Of a stretch of 26,921 bases of DNA, positions 17,596 to 25,321 are shown piece after piece; within the stretch, counting starts at the first letter, position 1; the number at the start of each line of letters is the position of its first letter. This stretch comes from a virus. The stretch lies in the IMG/VR virus record IMGVR_UViG_3300042526_000259, positions 1 through 26,921 of that record; one strand, given 5' to 3'. The position numbers were made by a program, and so were the translations under genes. The notes under the pieces are model-generated. The model saw nothing but the letters and a program-made list of their open reading frames with translations. It did not search any database and was not told the origin of the DNA.

Positions 17596-17802
17596 ATGAT
17601 ACATTCACACCACCCCGACAATAGCATTTTAGTAATAATTACAAGCATAATCATTCAAGCCGGTGTATGGACTTCAGACTGGTTCGGTAATATGAATTTA
17701 GTCGGCATTTATGACACGATTTATGACTTCGCCAAGTTAGGGGCATTAGTGGTGTCAATGTGGGCTTCTTATCGTGTTGCCAAGAAAAATAAGAATGACT
17801 AA
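17596..17802 (+). CDS. Small membrane protein, holin-like candidate
   Basis: 68 residues. It begins with a His-rich start (MIHSHHPDN), then has a hydrophobic helix (about 10-27, ILVIITSIIIQAGVW), a loop and a second hydrophobic helix (about 45-60, FAKLGALVVSMWASY), ending in Lys. Two membrane spans in a small protein near the end of the late operon is a holin-like layout, but it could equally be an uncharacterised inner-membrane protein. Overlaps the next gene by 8 bases. Confidence 0.5.
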   Translation: MIHSHHPDNSILVIITSIIIQAGVWTSDWFGNMNLVGIYDTIYDFAKLGALVVSMWASYRVAKKNKND

Positions 17803-17974
17803 CCAAGAAATCGTAGAATTAAAGCCATTGATATTAGTCTTGATTATTTTGTTAGTTTATCTTATTGCGATGTTGTATCAATACCGAGAAATTGCCAAGA
17901 ATGTGGGAAGACTATTCAAAGGCGGTGTTGTTGCGTTGTTGGTGATGCTGGGCATCATTGATGAGCAAAAATAA
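17795..17974 (+). CDS. Small membrane protein, unknown function
   Basis: I choose ATG 17795 (59 residues) inside the end of the preceding gene; a GTG at 17774 is in frame but would deepen the overlap. There is one strong hydrophobic segment (LILVLIILLVYLIAMLY, about 11-27), a basic stretch (YREIAKNVGRLFKGG) and a second weaker hydrophobic segment (VVALLVMLGII). It is the last plus-strand gene of the structural operon, and its stop is 3 bases from the stop of the convergent minus-strand gene. It may belong with the preceding membrane protein as a pair. Confidence 0.5.
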   Translation: MTNQEIVELKPLILVLIILLVYLIAMLYQYREIAKNVGRLFKGGVVALLVMLGIIDEQK

Positions 17975-17977
17975 AAC

Positions 17978-18196
17978 TTATTTATACATACGAATGCTAT
18001 ACTTAATAGCCTTAATAATGTCGCAATGATACCAGATTGTTTCATTGTCGATAAGCATACAAGTGTGACCCATCATAGATAGATTAAATCTTTCCATGTC
18101 AATCGGATATTCTTTCAATAAAGTTTCTATTTCTGCTTTGATAAAGCCATATTCATACTTGGTTTTGTAGGTGTTTACTCTTTCTGCAATGCTCAT
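17978..18196 (-). CDS. Small hypothetical protein
   Basis: 72 residues on the minus strand, starting 3 bases after the preceding gene's stop. An N-terminal helix (SIAERVNTYKTKYEYGFIKAEIETLLKEY) is followed by a Met/Cys/His-containing segment (MMGHTCMLIDNETIWYHCD). I know the general shape from Bacteroidota phage hypothetical proteins but cannot give a function. It is the last gene of a minus-strand unit, with no terminator visible between it and the convergent structural operon. Confidence 0.55.
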   Translation of the reverse strand: MSIAERVNTYKTKYEYGFIKAEIETLLKEYPIDMERFNLSMMGHTCMLIDNETIWYHCDIIKAIKYSIRMYK

Positions 18197-18199
18197 AAT

Positions 18200-18523
18200 T
18201 TAGTCTTTGTTTTCGGGAAAGTATTGCTTTAACTTTTCTGAATAATCCTTAAAAAAAATAAAAATAAATTCAGTTATTTCTAATTTACTTAACAACTCAT
18301 TGTCATCGGTTAACACAATAACAGTAGTGTCTGTCATCTTTTCTTTTATTAGCGTTTTAGTAGAATAAAAATACTTTATTCTTACCTCTTTAACATCAAA
18401 AACAAATACCTCATCATTATATTCGTTGGTAGGAATGTCAATATAATCTAACAAATCTTTGTCGAATTCTTTCTCATAAATACAATGTATGCAGTCCATT
18501 ATAATGAATGATGTATTATCCAT
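18200..18523 (-). CDS. Hypothetical protein, acidic
   Basis: 107 residues, minus strand, 36 bases after the metallophosphoesterase stop. Acidic and Phe/Ile-rich, with no recognised domain and a cysteine pair near the N-terminus (CIHC). Alternating hydrophobic and charged residues suggest a small alpha/beta fold. It is transcribed with the phosphoesterase, so a linked role is possible, but nothing in the sequence defines it. Confidence 0.5.
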   Translation of the reverse strand: MDNTSFIIMDCIHCIYEKEFDKDLLDYIDIPTNEYNDEVFVFDVKEVRIKYFYSTKTLIKEKMTDTTVIVLTDDNELLSKLEITEFIFIFFKDYSEKLKQYFPENKD

Positions 18524-18559
18524 TATCGGTTGAATTAGTGGTTAGTGAGTGATTAATCA

Positions 18560-19726
18560 TTAAAAAATATGTGTTATTCTTGCTATTTGACCATTTTCTT
18601 TACAATGTAAAAAACCCTCAACCGCTTTAGGTGCGTGCTGATAACCATTTCTATGATGCCAACTATCTGTTCCACTTGGACTTCTTAAACTTTCAACCGT
18701 TACTCCTATAAAATCCTTGCTTGTTTTGTGATGTACGTGATGCGTATAAATATATCTGTGCTTTGTTTCGCCCCATTCTTGACTAAATTCTTGCGCCATC
18801 AATAGCGGTAAATCTCCTTGCTTTGCCCCATCTCCATGCGTTGTGCCAATCAAATTATTATGATACTTATAACCTTTTCTATGTGCTATGGTACAATCAA
18901 AAGTTATATTCTTACAATCTTTAAAATATGTTTCTACAACTTGGGCCAAAAAGAAACCGTTTGTGTAGTCGTGGTTACTTGGATTAAAAGTAAAGTGAAC
19001 ATCGGCAACACCTATTAATATTTCTAAAACATCAACGTACAACTGTTTGGCAATTAAAAAGTTTGTGTGCCACATTCCATCTGTGTCTTGGGGTGTTCCA
19101 CTGGTAGTTGTTCTTTTTGGATTGTCAATGTGCAATATATCGTTTCCACCAATAAACAATATCTTATCTATATCAAACGAGCTTACTTTTTGCAGTATTC
19201 CTTTTACACCCTCTAAAACTCTTTTAACTGCCACTTGGTTATCGTATGTTTCACCTGATTCAAACGATGTGCATAATTTACCAATGTGAATATCGGCAGG
19301 ATCCAAAACAAGCAAATAAGAATCATTGCTTTTTACTCTTTCTATTTGTGGGAACTTTGGCACATAAGCTTGTAAGTCTTTTAATAGTGCTTCTTTAAAA
19401 TGTTCTTGTTCTTTTGCTTCTGGCTTTTTATAATTTGGATTAACAACAAACAAAGATGCTTCCTTGTTTTTTATCCACATATTTTTTGTGGAGGTATTCG
19501 GCACATCTAAATTGTTGGTGGCATTATAAATACCCTCGTGTTGGTCAAGTATTCTCTTTTTATGCCGTTCAATATAGCGCCTAAATGACCTTACTTTCGG
19601 GTCTTGCTCTCTGGTTGCATTGGTGTTTAATATTTTTGCAACTATTTCGGAGCAAGCCAAACCCTGATGGAGCATTTCAGCTACAATCGAATCATATTTA
19701 TAAAATTCTGATGTAACTTGTGGCAT
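18560..19726 (-). CDS. Calcineurin-like metallophosphoesterase with N-terminal HTH-like region
   Basis: 388 residues. The phosphoesterase core shows the family metal ligands in order: DPADIHIG (D145, H147), FIGGNDILH (N195, D196), NPSNHD (N251, H252, D253), GTTHGDG (H297, D299) and THHVHH (H329-H333). These build the two-metal site of calcineurin-like phosphoesterases and Mre11/SbcD-type nucleases. The N-terminal about 60 residues (YDSIVAEMLHQGLACSEIVAKIL, then RSFRRYIERHKK) look like an HTH or DNA-binding helix bundle. Likely a phage-encoded nuclease or phosphatase acting in the cytoplasm; the substrate is unknown. The gene follows a small protein by 12 bases and is in the same operon. No truncation seen. 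Confidence 0.85.
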   Translation of the reverse strand: MPQVTSEFYKYDSIVAEMLHQGLACSEIVAKILNTNATREQDPKVRSFRRYIERHKKRILDQHEGIYNATNNLDVPNTSTKNMWIKNKEASLFVVNPNYKKPEAKEQEHFKEALLKDLQAYVPKFPQIERVKSNDSYLLVLDPADIHIGKLCTSFESGETYDNQVAVKRVLEGVKGILQKVSSFDIDKILFIGGNDILHIDNPKRTTTSGTPQDTDGMWHTNFLIAKQLYVDVLEILIGVADVHFTFNPSNHDYTNGFFLAQVVETYFKDCKNITFDCTIAHRKGYKYHNNLIGTTHGDGAKQGDLPLLMAQEFSQEWGETKHRYIYTHHVHHKTSKDFIGVTVESLRSPSGTDSWHHRNGYQHAPKAVEGFLHCKENGQIARITHIF

Positions 19727-19738
19727 ATGTATATGGTG

Positions 19739-19960
19739 TTAATCTAACGAAATTGCGTTGTCCTGCAATATCTCAAAGAATTTTTCTTGGAATCGTTCTG
19801 CAAGTTCATACTCTTTGTCTGTGAGGTTGCCATTGTACTTGATTTCATCTCTCATAAACTGCTTGAAATCCCAAAGCACACAATACATAGCACTTGCTTT
19901 GACTGCCAGTTCAAAATCTCCTTTGTCATCTGGTAGATTAAATTTCAATGTTGCTTCCAT
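19739..19960 (-). CDS. Small hypothetical protein, first gene of the phosphoesterase unit
   Basis: 73 residues. An acidic N-terminus (LKFNLPDDKGDFELAVKASAM) leads into a helix with WDFKQFMRDEIKY and a C-terminal helix (ELAERFQEKFFEIL). The pattern recurs in Bacteroidota phages as an uncharacterised small protein. A TATCTTTG promoter element ends four bases before the ATG, so this gene may be expressed from a leaderless or almost leaderless transcript. Confidence 0.6.
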   Translation of the reverse strand: MEATLKFNLPDDKGDFELAVKASAMYCVLWDFKQFMRDEIKYNGNLTDKEYELAERFQEKFFEILQDNAISLD

Positions 19961-19964
19961 TGAG

Positions 19965-19997
19965 CAAAGATAGTGATTTATTCATACAAAAAACAAA
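19965..19997 (-). promoter_or_regulatory. Bacteroidota-type promoter, leaderless or short leader
   Basis: On the minus strand TATCTTTG (19972 to 19965) matches TAnnTTTG. A TTTG box lies 21 bases upstream (19997-19994). The ATG of the 73-residue gene begins at 19960, four bases after the G, so initiation would be at or next to the start codon. The -33 box overlaps the T-rich tail of the terminator of the preceding unit. Confidence 0.65.
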
Positions 19998-20021
19998 GCC
20001 CTCACATTTCTGCAAGGGCTT
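19988..20021 (-). terminator. Rho-independent terminator of the lysis unit
   Basis: On the minus strand AAGCCCT (20021 to 20015) pairs with AGGGCTT (20002 to 19996), with loop TGCAGAAATGTG, then TGTTTTTTG in the minus sense. A seven-base GC-containing stem followed by a T-rich run is a classical intrinsic terminator. It lies downstream of the spanin-like gene. Confidence 0.75.
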
Positions 20022-20048
20022 CTACCTAATAACTAACACTGAACGAGG

Positions 20049-20056
20049 CAAAGATA
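20049..20056 (-). promoter_or_regulatory. Extra -7 element (TATCTTTG) between palindrome and terminator
   Basis: Minus-strand TATCTTTG at 20056-20049 matches the -7 consensus. No clear TTTG box lies at normal distance; that region is taken by the adjacent 20-bp palindrome. A transcript starting near 20043 would reach the terminator at about 19988 after only about 55 bases. Confidence 0.4.
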
Positions 20057-20071
20057 GTATATTATTTTAAA

Positions 20072-20091
20072 TGTTCACGAATTCGTGAACA
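20072..20091. repeat. Perfect 20-bp palindrome
   Basis: TGTTCACGAA followed directly by TTCGTGAACA is an exact inverted repeat. It begins two bases beyond the stop codon of the spanin-like gene. It could be an operator for a dimeric regulator of the -7 element beside it, or part of the 3' end structure of the lysis mRNA. Confidence 0.75.
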
Positions 20092-20093
20092 AA

Positions 20094-20660
20094 CTATTTT
20101 AATCCCACAACTAACCACAATAAAAACATTGCCCCACCAACACACCACGCAGCTATTTTACCTCTCCTTTGTTGTTTTGTTTCTTGTTTACTGATAACCA
20201 ACAGAGTGCTATCGGTAACATTCTCCGCCTTGTAGCCAACTATTAAAGAATCCTTAATCGTTGAAGCCGAATCACAAAGTTGAAACGCAGTAAATAACGC
20301 TGCATAACTTGAATCCTTTACATTGATAATCTCATCACATAGAACAAACACAGTATCGCACTCTTTTGGTAGCCTATCACGCAGTTTCTTTAATAAAGCT
20401 ATGTTAGTGTTGCTCAAAGATATTTCACGTTGTCTAATCGAATCTTTTGCGTTGTTTGCAGTTTGTAGTCTTCGGTTGACTGCTTCTAACTGATTCAGCA
20501 ATATTGCCTGCTCAATGCCGAATTGTTTTTTCATCATTTCCGCTTCTGCTTTGTAGTCGAATGGAATAGTTTTCGGTTTCTCTTTGGCGCAATGGTTAAG
20601 ACCGATAATTAGCAGTAAGCATAGGATAGCGAATGTGATAAGTTGGTATTGTGTTTTCAT
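20094..20660 (-). CDS. Spanin-like membrane/coiled-coil protein
   Basis: 188 residues from the ATG at 20660; an in-frame ATG at 20690 lies inside the previous gene, whereas 20660 has an A-rich leader AAAAACAACAAT. The N-terminal hydrophobic segment (QLITFAILCLLLIIGL) is followed by NHC, which might be a degenerate lipobox (lacks the usual small residue before Cys). A charged helical region about 30-100, likely coiled coil (EAEMMKKQFGIEQ, then LNQLEAVNRRLQ), is followed by a C-terminal hydrophobic segment (AAWCVGGAMFLLWLVVGL). Two terminal anchors around a periplasmic coiled coil match the unimolecular-spanin layout that fuses inner and outer membranes at lysis. Next to holin and endopeptidase genes. 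An Rz-like inner-membrane spanin is the alternative. Confidence 0.55.
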   Translation of the reverse strand: MKTQYQLITFAILCLLLIIGLNHCAKEKPKTIPFDYKAEAEMMKKQFGIEQAILLNQLEAVNRRLQTANNAKDSIRQREISLSNTNIALLKKLRDRLPKECDTVFVLCDEIINVKDSSYAALFTAFQLCDSASTIKDSLIVGYKAENVTDSTLLVISKQETKQQRRGKIAAWCVGGAMFLLWLVVGLK

Positions 20661-20670
20661 ATTGTTGTTT

Positions 20671-20925
20671 TTAGCACCCATCCCCATCAATAACCGCAGT
20701 TTTGGTAGGTGTTTCGGTTGTGAATTTAGTTAAGAATTTTGTATTAATCAACAAGAATGTCGCTGCCAAACCACCCCAAAACGCTTGCTTTAAACTGATT
20801 AATCCTTGCGTTTCTGCGAGTGCTAACGATGTCTGAATGAATGGTAGCAAAACGTAAATTAAGTAATCTGCAATCTTTTTTAGTTGGCGGTTGTCGGGGC
20901 TTCTGTATTTTTGTTTTAGATTCAT
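20671..20925 (-). CDS. Holin candidate
   Basis: 84 residues. A basic N-terminus (NLKQKYRSPDNRQLKKIA) is followed by two hydrophobic segments (about 20-37, DYLIYVLLPFIQTSLALA; about 46-62, KQAFWGGLAATFLLIN) and a polar tail. This is the size and topology of a class II holin, which makes the inner-membrane lesions that release the endolysin. Placement between endopeptidase and spanin-like genes fits. Gap of 10 bases to the spanin-like start. Confidence 0.65.
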   Translation of the reverse strand: MNLKQKYRSPDNRQLKKIADYLIYVLLPFIQTSLALAETQGLISLKQAFWGGLAATFLLINTKFLTKFTTETPTKTAVIDGDGC

Positions 20926-21222: not shown

Positions 21223-21408
21223 TCAATTAATTATTTCCCACTCAAACTTCCCCTTAATATTCCATTCAAGCAAGGGCATTATCAAATCGTGTTTATCTTT
21301 CCTGCGAAAATAAACGTGGTCAATCTTTCGACCACCGATGACAATGAAATCAATCTTAACAAAGGTTATAACCTCCTTGCCATTAGTGTAGCGTGTTCCT
21401 CTTGTCAT
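21223..21408 (-). CDS. Very small hypothetical protein
   Basis: 61 residues starting in an ATGA overlap with the endopeptidase stop. Basic (MTRGTRYTNGKEVITFVKIDF, later YFRRKDKHDL) with beta-like pattern and Trp residues at the end. No family recognised. Its coupling to the endopeptidase suggests it is expressed at the same level. Confidence 0.5.
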   Translation of the reverse strand: MTRGTRYTNGKEVITFVKIDFIVIGGRKIDHVYFRRKDKHDLIMPLLEWNIKGKFEWEIIN

Positions 21409-21899
21409 ACTATTGTCATTTTCCAGTTGGTTAATTCATAGTGAGGCATATCCTTGAACGATTTAAAGTTACCGCCCCAAGTCAACTTATTAGATGCCGA
21501 TTGCAACATCTCCCAAAACTCTTTAAAATGCTTTGCCGAGTAGTCAAGTTCACGTTTGCCAACCTTGACAAATGCTATGTCAAAAGCACGAGATGGATAA
21601 TAATTATGCGGTGATTGCCCGGCACGAGCGTTAGTTATCTTCGGTCTTTTAGCATAATACACTTCCTGCATTGCATTGTTTCTGTATGTGCATACAATTA
21701 TAACGTGAACATCGTTGTGAATAGCGTTAAATTGCGCTTCTGCTTTCTTGTAAGCGTTGGCTAATGTTGGGTGTAGTTCCTCAATCAAACGTGATTCAAA
21801 GGGCTTGGTTTCATCTCTGGGTTTCATATTGTTTTGTTTATTACAATAGCATTCGTGTATGTCATTCGAGCCATAACACGCACAACTATTTGGTTTCAT
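21405..21899 (-). CDS. M15-family zinc endopeptidase (endolysin)
   Basis: 164 residues from the TAATG-overlap start at 21899. It carries the VanY/L-alanyl-D-glutamate peptidase pattern: SPHNYYPSRAFDIAF (zinc ligands H98 and D107) and MPHYELTNW (H153, with E155 next). Such enzymes cut the stem peptides of peptidoglycan. There is no signal peptide, so release would need the holin. The N-terminal 24 residues are Cys-rich (CAC, later CYC) and an internal ATG at 21827 with an A-rich leader (TAATAAACAAAACAAT) is an alternative start giving a standard-length enzyme beginning MKPRDETKPFESRL. The true start is therefore uncertain. Confidence 0.85.
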   Translation of the reverse strand: MKPNSCACYGSNDIHECYCNKQNNMKPRDETKPFESRLIEELHPTLANAYKKAEAQFNAIHNDVHVIIVCTYRNNAMQEVYYAKRPKITNARAGQSPHNYYPSRAFDIAFVKVGKRELDYSAKHFKEFWEMLQSASNKLTWGGNFKSFKDMPHYELTNWKMTIV

Positions 21900-22763: not shown

Positions 22764-22802
22764 CGGTCTAATTTAACAACTAACAATTAAACAACTAAAC
22801 AA

Positions 22803-23048: not shown

Positions 23049-23676
23049 TTTATTCTTTAAAAAAATATCGGATAATGAATTTACAATAGGTGGAACTATT
23101 GACATTATAGAACGCAAAATTAAATCAGTTGAGGTTGATGGGGAAACTTACACTAAAACTGAAATAATAGATAAAACTATTGATGTTTCTGAATTAGAAA
23201 AATATAATTGGCACAAGTATGATATTGAATTTGATTTTTTTAATCTAAAATATGTGTTCAATGAATATCAAGGTTTCACTTACCAATCATTAAGTCAAAA
23301 ATATTCTAAAATTGGGGTATCATCAAATGAATGTGTTGCAAGGTATGAGATACTATTTAATGAGGGTGTATTGGATAAAAGAATAATTAAAATTTACACA
23401 TCAAAAGAAAATATTACTCGAGTTTATTTAGATAAATATTTTGATGGGGTATCAATTGACATTTTAGTATTTGATTACGGATTCAACAATAAATTATATT
23501 GTACTATAAAATTGATTGACTTTTTTTCAATAGAAGATAAGACAATATTATTAGATTATAGAGAATACAAGTATTTTTTTATGGAAGAATTCAATGTTGA
23601 TATTGATGAAGAATTAAATGTTATAACTGCAATTAAATTGATAAAGAAATTAATTAAAAACAAAACTAACAACTAA
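23041..23676 (+). CDS. AT-rich orphan protein, unknown function
   Basis: I place the start at ATG 23041 (211 residues); an upstream ATG at 23014 is within the preceding gene. The sequence is visibly more AT-rich than neighbours and rich in Asp, Lys, Ile and aromatic residues. No recognised domain. Repeated Tyr/Phe/Asp patterns (YDIEFDFFNLKYVFNEY) and a long N-terminal beta-like part suggest an alpha/beta fold with no membrane segment. The late part has two adjacent helices (ITAIKLIKKLIKN). Its base composition and lack of similarity to its small neighbours suggest later acquisition. Confidence 0.55.
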   Translation: MHNLFFKKISDNEFTIGGTIDIIERKIKSVEVDGETYTKTEIIDKTIDVSELEKYNWHKYDIEFDFFNLKYVFNEYQGFTYQSLSQKYSKIGVSSNECVARYEILFNEGVLDKRIIKIYTSKENITRVYLDKYFDGVSIDILVFDYGFNNKLYCTIKLIDFFSIEDKTILLDYREYKYFFMEEFNVDIDEELNVITAIKLIKKLIKNKTNN

Positions 23677-23680
23677 CAAC

Positions 23681-23884
23681 ATGCAAGCAGTAATAGAAGA
23701 AATATCAATAACATACTCACAAGAATGTGATGAATCAAGCCAAGACTGGCAGTCACTTAAAATATTTACAAGCGATAACGGATCGGGTAAATACATAGTT
23801 TTTGAAACAGAACGATGGGCTATTGACAGTATTGATGAACTTATAGAAATACTTAACGATTTTAAACTTAAAGCAGGAATATAA
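23681..23884 (+). CDS. Small hypothetical early protein
   Basis: 67 residues. Acidic, with a Ser/Asp/Glu N-terminus and a helix near the end (IDELIEILNDFKLK). The pattern GSGKYIVFETERWAID is familiar from unnamed Bacteroidota phage proteins. Leader ACTAACAACTAACAAC directly before the ATG. Function unknown. Confidence 0.55.
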   Translation: MQAVIEEISITYSQECDESSQDWQSLKIFTSDNGSGKYIVFETERWAIDSIDELIEILNDFKLKAGI

Positions 23885-23900
23885 ACTAACAACTAACAAA

Positions 23901-24068
23901 ATGAAACAACTTATCCAACGCTTACTATTCGGTTACCGAAACAACCCAGCAGCCTACACCCCTAAAGGAGGCGCAAAATTAACGTATAAAGGTGGCAATG
24001 CAGAGGCCATACATTCTGCACTTGTATTAATGCAATATAACATTAAACATGCCAAAGGAATCAATTAA
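23901..24068 (+). CDS. Small hypothetical protein (55 residues)
   Basis: ATG 23901 follows the leader ACTAACAACTAACAAA and the frame runs to TAA 24066-24068. The peptide starts MKQLIQRLLFGYRNNPAAYT and then has KGGAKLTYKGGNAEAIHSAL, a Gly/Lys-rich core with a terminal helix. The start leader matches that of other early genes here, which supports it as real. It overlaps the next gene by 20 bases. Function unknown. Confidence 0.55.
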   Translation: MKQLIQRLLFGYRNNPAAYTPKGGAKLTYKGGNAEAIHSALVLMQYNIKHAKGIN

Positions 24069-24426
24069 GACACGCAATAGAAAAATAAGCCGCTATATTA
24101 GTGATGCCTACGTTAACATCATTAGACCTGAAGCAATCGACCCTAAACACTGGGATATGTGGCTGAAACATAATGCAGGATTAACCCAAGTTGAAATCGC
24201 TATGTTATTTCACGTAAAGAAGTATGAAGTTGTGCAAATATTGGCAACGGTTGTGGAGCTTTTAAAGTACAAACCAAAAATTATCGAAAAGGAATGGACA
24301 CAAGAGTTTCGTGTATGGATTGATGGGCAGTTATTTAGAGATAAAATAAGGGCCAAACTACATGCCGCTTATAAGGTGGCTAAAAAAACGAATACAAATC
24401 AGTTATTAATAATGTCAGAAGTATGA
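24049..24426 (+). CDS. HTH-type DNA-binding protein
   Basis: 125 residues. A basic start (KTRNRKISRYI) is followed by a helix-turn-helix-like segment at about residues 44-65 (GLTQVEIAMLFHVKKYEVVQIL), then a charged helical C-terminus. It could be a transcription regulator of the early or late genes, or a small terminase-like protein; the sequence does not settle which. It overlaps the next HTH gene by ATGA. Confidence 0.55.
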   Translation: MPKESIKTRNRKISRYISDAYVNIIRPEAIDPKHWDMWLKHNAGLTQVEIAMLFHVKKYEVVQILATVVELLKYKPKIIEKEWTQEFRVWIDGQLFRDKIRAKLHAAYKVAKKTNTNQLLIMSEV

Positions 24427-24671
24427 ACATAACCGCAGAGCAACCAAGAATCAAACCAAGCAAGGAACAACTTAAGCAAGAATATAAACAGATGTTAGCA
24501 CTTGTCGAACACAACGGATCGCGACCCGCGAAATGCAATCCGATAACCGAAGCCGCTAAACAATTTGGGTACACTCGGCCAGGTATTGCTCGGTTAATGA
24601 ATGGCAAAGTTGACCGTTGGAAGCCACAACATTTCATGATTTATGATTTTCTTAAAGCATATTTAACATAA
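24423..24671 (+). CDS. Second small HTH protein
   Basis: 82 residues, starting in an ATGA overlap. A charged N-terminus leads to a helix-turn-helix-like segment at about 41-62 (ITEAAKQFGYTRPGIARLMN), then aromatic C-terminal sequence. Its coupling to the preceding HTH protein suggests a regulator pair. DNA targets cannot be read from sequence. A promoter for the next unit lies just downstream. Confidence 0.55.
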   Translation: MNITAEQPRIKPSKEQLKQEYKQMLALVEHNGSRPAKCNPITEAAKQFGYTRPGIARLMNGKVDRWKPQHFMIYDFLKAYLT

Positions 24672-24727: not shown

Positions 24728-24767
24728 CATCAACAAATAACAATTACTAATTTTAAAAACTAACAAA

Positions 24768-25000: not shown

Positions 25001-25030
25001 AATTTACTAACCCAATAAAAACAAACTAAC

Positions 25031-25321
25031 ATGAACTCAATCAACATCATCACAAAAGTATCAACGCTAACAACGTGGCAAATCGAAAATTCTAAAGAGC
25101 GCATTGAATACGAAAGCGACAACGAAACATTCTACGTATGGAATAAAGACAATGAAATAACCGCTTCTATTGACCGTAAAGATGCATTCTGGACAATGCA
25201 ACTATGTGACCTTGCAGTTAGTAACGACAAGCACGAAATTAACTTACAATTTAACGATTACATCCCGCACACCTCATTTCTTTCAATGGTATTAACCGAT
25301 TTTTTACACAAAAACAAATAA
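25031..25321 (+). CDS. Hypothetical protein
   Basis: 96 residues. Acidic and mostly beta-like (TTWQIENSKERIEYESDNETF, later MQLCDLAVSNDKHEINLQF). No domain recognised, no membrane segment. It is preceded by the A-rich leader AACAAACTAAC and followed after 9 bases by the SSB-like gene, so it belongs to the recombination unit by position. Confidence 0.5.
   Translation: MNSINIITKVSTLTTWQIENSKERIEYESDNETFYVWNKDNEITASIDRKDAFWTMQLCDLAVSNDKHEINLQFNDYIPHTSFLSMVLTDFLHKNK

Follow-up and report, generated by a model that had tools for sequence, protein, structure and literature searches.

OOP, an RNA of lambdoid phages, is transcribed from a promoter of its own and ends at its own terminator. In the pR'-tR' leader of phage lambda (6S RNA), the terminator is read through with Q into the late genes. 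In Bacteroides thetaiotaomicron, the small RNA GibS (BTnc035) is intergenic, carries a conserved unpaired 5' seed, and base-pairs in the region of start codons, no chaperone being known (PMC7366714). In Bacteroides, neither Hfq nor ProQ is obvious (PMC7366714). A search of the open-access literature, which covers part of the literature as a whole, found no small RNA of a Bacteroidetes phage.

The DNA analyzed here is an IMG/VR virus record of 26,921 bases (“the window” refers to this whole stretch) that is ascribed to an uncultured phage of Bacteroidetes; exonucleases of Flavobacterium phages resemble the exonuclease of the window, and its promoters and gene starts are of the Bacteroidetes type. 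One intergenic gap contains a cassette that, judged by comparison of sequences, is very probably a small-RNA gene. The best explanation as a whole, a free-standing phage small-RNA gene that includes targeting of early genes by a seed, is considered probable.

Layout of the locus and the predicted RNA

Along the minus strand, the lysis operon is followed by a 133-base gap with the cassette, a 73-aa open reading frame (ORF), and a gene for a DNA repair exonuclease. The structural operon on the plus strand stops at 17974, facing the lysis operon and the module described below. The features of this region are as follows.

21405-21899, minus strand: M15 endolysin of the lysis operon
Between the endolysin and lipoprotein genes, minus strand: holin-like 84-aa gene of the lysis operon
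20094..20690, minus strand: lipoprotein/spanin-like gene, the last of the lysis operon; an internal ATG is probably the true start
20072..20091, no strand: perfect 20-bp palindrome TGTTCACGAATTCGTGAACA, an insert that separates the old -33 TTG from the -7 box, with 8-bp repeats TTAAAATA on both sides
20049..20056, minus strand: -7 element TATCTTTG of promoter P1; TAnnTTTG is invariant in 51 distinct relatives
19987..20044, minus strand: predicted small RNA of about 58 nt, GUUCAGUGUUAGUUAUUAGGUAGAAGCCCUUGCAGAAAUGUGAGGGCUUUGUUUUUUG, with predicted ends; it starts exactly 4 nt past the -7 box
20030..20044, minus strand: conserved unpaired 5' box GTTCA(A/G)TGTTAGTTA
20031..20038, minus strand: putative seed UGUUAGUU (RNA bases 7-14), the exact complement of AACTAACA (RNA form AACUAACA) at early-gene start codons
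19995..20022, minus strand: intrinsic terminator hairpin of 12 pairs with a GAAA loop; T-run to about 19987
19994..19997, minus strand: -33 box TTTG of promoter P2, at the hairpin/T-run border; not kept in relatives L082 and L092, which have an insert there
19965..19972, minus strand: -7 element TATCTTTG of P2; +1 predicted at 19960 (start rule of PMC6847099)
19739..19960, minus strand: 73-aa ORF that opens the inserted module; each of its 20 near-identical relatives has the cassette upstream
18560..19726, minus strand: DNA repair exonuclease (phrog_704) of the module, E 9e-68
17774..17974, plus strand: last gene of the opposing structural operon; its C-terminus ALLVMLGIID matches convergent gene ends in many of the relatives L118-L166

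According to the Flavobacterium johnsoniae start rule, the last G of TAnnTTTG is at -5 (PMC6847099), and the RNA start of P1 is therefore predicted at 20044. The RNA, which the host RNA polymerase would transcribe, is predicted to comprise 22 unpaired bases, the 12-bp GAAA-loop hairpin, and the T-run; with the terminator hairpin, its fold has a z of -3.2. On its own, TATCTTTG is weak evidence, occurring 7 times in the window (TAnnTTTG occurs 47 times), and the P1 unit stands above chance because it is conserved in relatives.

All of the elements named by the first-pass annotation are present, with small shifts in coordinates: the perfect palindrome, the TATCTTTG-type -7 element of P1, the intrinsic terminator, and a second promoter (P2) whose upstream box lies at the hairpin/T-run border, with a TTG 21 nt upstream of the -7 element. 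The short transcript that it had proposed stands as a prediction, and its length and start are revised from about 55 to about 58 nt and from 20043 to 20044.

Conservation of the cassette and its genomic contexts

Relatives were sampled in several ways. A search with the exonuclease gave close relatives (L002-L006), of which L004-L006 lack the palindrome, differ in upstream sequence, and retain P1, the RNA, and the terminator. Scanning by pattern recovered 52 cassette-bearing contigs, and 51 distinct cassettes were compared. Sampling by protein (the 73-aa gene and the lipoprotein) was added to avoid selecting for conservation. The cassette lies upstream in 20/20 close relatives of the 73-aa gene that have upstream sequence, and within 1.7 kb in 59 of the 60 lipoprotein-selected loci that have downstream sequence; the sole negative locus is on a contig ending after 1.3 kb. 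It directly follows the lipoprotein gene in 35 of these 60 loci, and in nearly all of the remainder (about 24 of the 60) the two are separated by an accessory gene that has a promoter of its own and a different leader RNA. All cassette phages belong to one clade of uncultured Bacteroidetes phages.

The promoter varies in a way that preserves it. The -7 box reads TATCTTTG, TATATTTG, or TACATTTG in the 51 distinct cassettes, with change confined to the two free positions of TAnnTTTG, and it is separated from the conserved box by 4 nt in 49 of them, a spacing that places +1 on the first G of the box. Upstream of the -7 box, a TTG is found at 17-20 nt in 42/51 cassettes despite differing upstream genes. 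The RNA thus appears to have its own promoter of the host-consensus type (TAnnTTTG in 51/51), and the window itself is without the -33 TTG. The 15-nt box has a pairwise difference of 0.033 and the hairpin one of 0.009, as compared to 0.335 at third codon positions and 0.111 at first and second positions in the adjacent lipoprotein gene; the box is thus 10-fold and the hairpin 37-fold less divergent than neighboring third codon positions. These figures come from pattern-selected loci, and the loci selected by protein (73-aa gene, lipoprotein) look alike. Substitutions in the hairpin keep pairing in 99.6% of cells, including one double change, from C-G to A-U, that two relatives show. Near-identical copies of the hairpin are annotated “terminator” in two T4-like phages; the hairpin is thus of a general terminator type, and the specific part is the promoter-box-hairpin unit.

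Conservation, promoter-preserving substitutions, and hairpin-preserving changes strongly support the small-RNA reading, which the first-pass annotation had raised as a possibility. Comparison of the relatives shows a predicted unit composed of a Bacteroidetes-type housekeeping promoter (TTTG / TAnnTTTG), a conserved unpaired 5' box at the predicted +1, and a strong GNRA-loop terminator, and shows this unit kept whole through changes of both neighboring genes. A leader peptide ((A/G)TG TTA GTT ...) was considered and rejected, as there is no conserved frame or stop across alignment indels; the cassette appears to be conserved without coding.

Two variants on this arrangement were observed. At L193:7030-7090 (minus strand), a divergent cassette has the body GTTTTCATAGTTAAGTTAAGTTAAGTTTCC ahead of the same hairpin; the endolysin of L193 is 85% identical, and a homing-endonuclease-like (GIY-YIG-like) insert adjoins it. 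In about 24 relatives (L119:9230-9340, L263, L268, L269, L280, L283, and others), a second conserved RNA occupies the same promoter position after the lipoprotein gene. It has a 5' hairpin with the loop GUAGGAG followed by a long terminator hairpin with the loop CCUCCUAC; the loops are complementary and anti-Shine-Dalgarno-like, and stem changes look compensatory. Varied accessory genes (e.g., DNA methylases) lie behind this second RNA, which has no match in Rfam.

The region behind the terminator is variable. Of 53 distinct contexts, 35 have the end of a convergent gene, mostly a relative of ORF 17774-17974, within 60 nt past the terminator, and 34 of these 35 lack any co-directional ORF of 50 aa that begins in the next 300 nt; with a convergent gene in this place, P1 can yield only a short RNA. 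In relatives, the T-run and the opposing gene's stop codon share bases, and where the module is missing, the terminator of the cassette directly adjoins the ends of ORF 17774-17974 relatives. The window and about 17 relatives have a module consisting of P2, the 73-aa gene, and the exonuclease inserted behind the terminator. As only part of the relatives have this module, P1 and the terminator are the conserved device, and P2 arrived with the module, which it serves; the two promoters are not the single “relay” that the first-pass annotation had described. The P2 +1 at 19960 is the A of the ATG of the 73-aa gene, and a leaderless mRNA is therefore predicted. In 8 of the 20 module-bearing relatives, the P2 mRNA would begin with AACUAACAACAAUG (an 11-nt leader, AACTAACAACA), whereas the window allele is without this leader. 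The 73-aa ORF has no Pfam or PHROG match. The stretch 17978-19972 (P2, the 73-aa ORF, the exonuclease, and two small ORFs) looks like an exchangeable module between the terminator and the opposing operon, and this junction is a hot spot for accessory genes. In L082 and L092, a tandem-like insert of ACACCGMACATT units lies between the terminator and P2.

These contexts bear on other readings of the cassette. The first-pass annotation had allowed for an attenuated leader, with P1 as the real promoter of the 73-aa and exonuclease genes and the hairpin as a regulated terminator subject to antitermination. The co-directional module shortly after the terminator in the window and about 17 relatives is compatible with such a leader, but the 35/53 contexts in which the following gene is convergent rather than co-directional, with P1 and the terminator equally conserved, mostly refute it, and the module has P2 as its own promoter; this reading is very improbable, and as a general role, attenuation of the 73-aa/exonuclease genes is rejected because most relatives have no co-directional gene downstream. 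Transcription from P1 could alternatively oppose read-through of the structural operon into the lysis operon, with the RNA as a by-product of a cis-antisense or collision device. The location at a convergent junction, where the T-run overlaps the opposing stop codon in relatives, would suit such a device; yet conservation of the cassette is no lower in phages, such as that of the window, that have about 2 kb of module between it and the opposing gene, and the first 15 nt of the RNA are conserved although collision has no need of them, which makes this account improbable. The promoter and terminator might also be kept as short homologies for exchange of accessory genes, in which case the RNA would have no role. 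Module borders fall exactly at the promoter/+1, an accessory gene and another leader lie between the lipoprotein gene and the cassette in about 24/60 loci, and recurrent sharing by exchange could still lower divergence. However, hairpin changes keep pairing, the -7 box varies only at its free positions, and the box stays beside +1; such a recombination linker is judged quite improbable.

Palindrome, putative seed, and candidate targets

The palindrome TGTTCACGAATTCGTGAACA is the longest perfect palindrome of the window (the next has 14 bp); by our own arithmetic, about 0.05 palindromes of 20 bp are expected in the window at 37% GC. As the first-pass annotation had stated, it covers the place of a -33 box, spanning -28 to -47 of P1, and in the window lineage no TTG is present 17-23 nt upstream of the -7 box. 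It is found in only 4/60 lipoprotein loci, in which the distance from the stop codon to the -7 box is 40 nt rather than the 8 nt seen otherwise. Other alleles read ATTAAAATAATATAC, without the palindrome, and an additional stretch containing the dyad sets the window apart from alleles with GTTGTGGGATTAAAATAATATAC-TATCTTTG. The ancestral -33 TTG, in the end of the lipoprotein gene, has been shifted away from the -7 box by the insert. Comparison of alleles thus indicates that the palindrome is a lineage-specific insertion displacing the -33 box, and in the window lineage the RNA would be either under the control of a protein or weakened. In one relative (L003), the dyad is retained with an altered center. 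Among other viral contigs, 22 carry the palindrome, many of them of one family, a number not clearly above chance by a rough estimate; the dyad GTTCACGATTTCGTGAACA lies in shared conserved sequence of one viral contig family (L210, L212, L214, L216, L217, L219, L223, L227).

An operator function, in which a dimeric regulator of the phage or host binds 20072-20091 and represses or activates P1, is a tentative suggestion. The perfect dyad over the upstream region of P1, its retention around a changed center in L003, and the loss of the -33 TTG are in its favor. Against it, the palindrome is restricted to 4 of the 60 loci and might just as well form a hairpin at the 3' end of the lysis mRNA, 2 nt past its stop codon, or be a small insertion. 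The helix-turn-helix (HTH) proteins at 24049-24671, which the first-pass annotation had proposed as binding partners, have relatives in L193 (the 82-aa one also in L362), and both of these phages are without the palindrome, so that a dedicated HTH-palindrome pairing is unlikely.

Several small early genes have AACUAACA in their translation-initiation regions; the seed UGUUAGUU could pair with it there and would thereby block translation of these genes, in the manner of B. thetaiotaomicron GibS. The candidate sites in the window are the following.

22778..22785, plus strand: AACTAACA, putative target upstream of ORF 22803
23664..23678, plus strand: two AACTAACA copies upstream of ORF 23681
23884..23898, plus strand: two AACTAACA copies upstream of ORF 23901; 13/15 relatives of the gene retain the motif
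24758..24765, plus strand: AACTAACA upstream of ORF 24768
25024..25031, plus strand: AACTAACA overlapping the ATG of ORF 25031; 15/17 relatives retain the motif

In the window, AACTAACA is present at 5 of 11 early genes and at 0 of 31 structural, lysis, and module genes (Fisher p 0.0005, tested after the pattern had been seen). Of the 708 distinct gene starts in 18 cassette phages, 54 have the motif, a 45-fold enrichment relative to ORF interiors, with its first base mostly at -10, -8, or -7, whereas control phage loci without the cassette have it at 1/946 and 0/747 starts. A family of 55-aa genes keeps the motif in 13 of 15 members though the rest of the leader diverges, and a family of 96-aa genes in 15 of 17. 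The predicted pairing is limited to the 8 nt of the seed, without extension. Shuffled seeds equal the real one in 3/300 (8-mers), 36/300 (7-mers), and 26/300 (9-mers) cases; a duplex-energy test of the RNA against all leaders was not significant, and total genome counts of AACTAACA show no excess over a reversed control motif. L193, with its different RNA body, has no AACTAACA leaders, and L362 has neither cassette nor motif; both agree with covariation of seed and target, but two phages are too few to count. As the cassette phages form one clade, finding seed and motif together amounts to little more than one event. Support for seed-motif pairing is only moderate (about 1% by shuffling).

A at -3 and -6 is favored in Bacteroidetes initiation (PMC6847099), and AACTAACA could itself be a translation-initiation element that supplies A-3 and A-6 when it lies at -10 or -7. 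On this basis, the small-RNA gene may be real while its seed acts on host mRNAs or via a protein, with AACTAACA merely an A/C-rich initiation motif of this phage group. The restriction of pairing to 8 nt and the energy test are in line with such an alternative, a serious one that nonetheless has less for it than against it. It is countered by the near absence of AACTAACA from leaders of control Bacteroidetes phages and by the fact that the exact complement of AACTAACA is the core of the conserved box. Within the preferred small-RNA reading, targeting of early genes through UGUUAGUU is accordingly proposed with reserve, as a possibility somewhat short of an even one. That one seed turns off unrelated early genes sharing AACUAACA at their start codons, as a multi-target riboregulon in a Bacteroidetes phage, is conceivable but doubtful.

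Comparison with known small RNAs

Rfam holds no family matching the RNA (the best, BTnc049, scores 21.3 bits against a cut-off of 81.9). In the bacterial genomes searched, the full cassette has 0 matches; 3 matches to a looser promoter-and-box pattern are without the terminator and were judged to be chance. In the isolated phages searched, only the generic hairpin was found (T4-like terminators and weak matches in human-faecal phages), and the unit was not. As read here, the RNA works like a known kind of regulator, yet it is a new family. The unit is conserved enough for a direct check in metatranscriptomes, and the target motif is specific enough for proof or disproof with reporters. If the targeting is true, it shows early-gene shut-off by a phage at the RNA level in hosts without Shine-Dalgarno initiation; if the riboregulon is true, a small RNA coordinates the phage's own gene program in hosts that (Bacteroides at least) have no obvious Hfq/ProQ.

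Like lambda pR'-tR', the cassette has a promoter followed by a terminator and would yield a short RNA beside lysis genes; unlike it, most relatives here have a convergent gene, with nothing to express past the terminator. OOP of lambdoid phages and sar of P22 are likewise short phage RNAs and antisense regulators of phage genes (PMC12197685), but each is antisense to one gene, whereas here several separate putative targets are matched by a short motif only. PreS of lambda and DicF (53 nt) resemble the RNA as phage-derived, trans-acting small RNAs (PMC12197685); PreS is Hfq-dependent, and both act on host genes (dnaN and ftsZ), in contrast to the early-gene targets proposed here. GibS is host-encoded, with an extended seed and two tested targets, whereas the RNA described here is phage-encoded, about 58 nt long, and has a predicted 8-nt seed and putative targets. 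Like GibS, it is an intergenic Bacteroidetes RNA with its own promoter, a conserved unpaired 5' seed, an intrinsic terminator, and (here predicted) pairing at start codons (PMC7366714).
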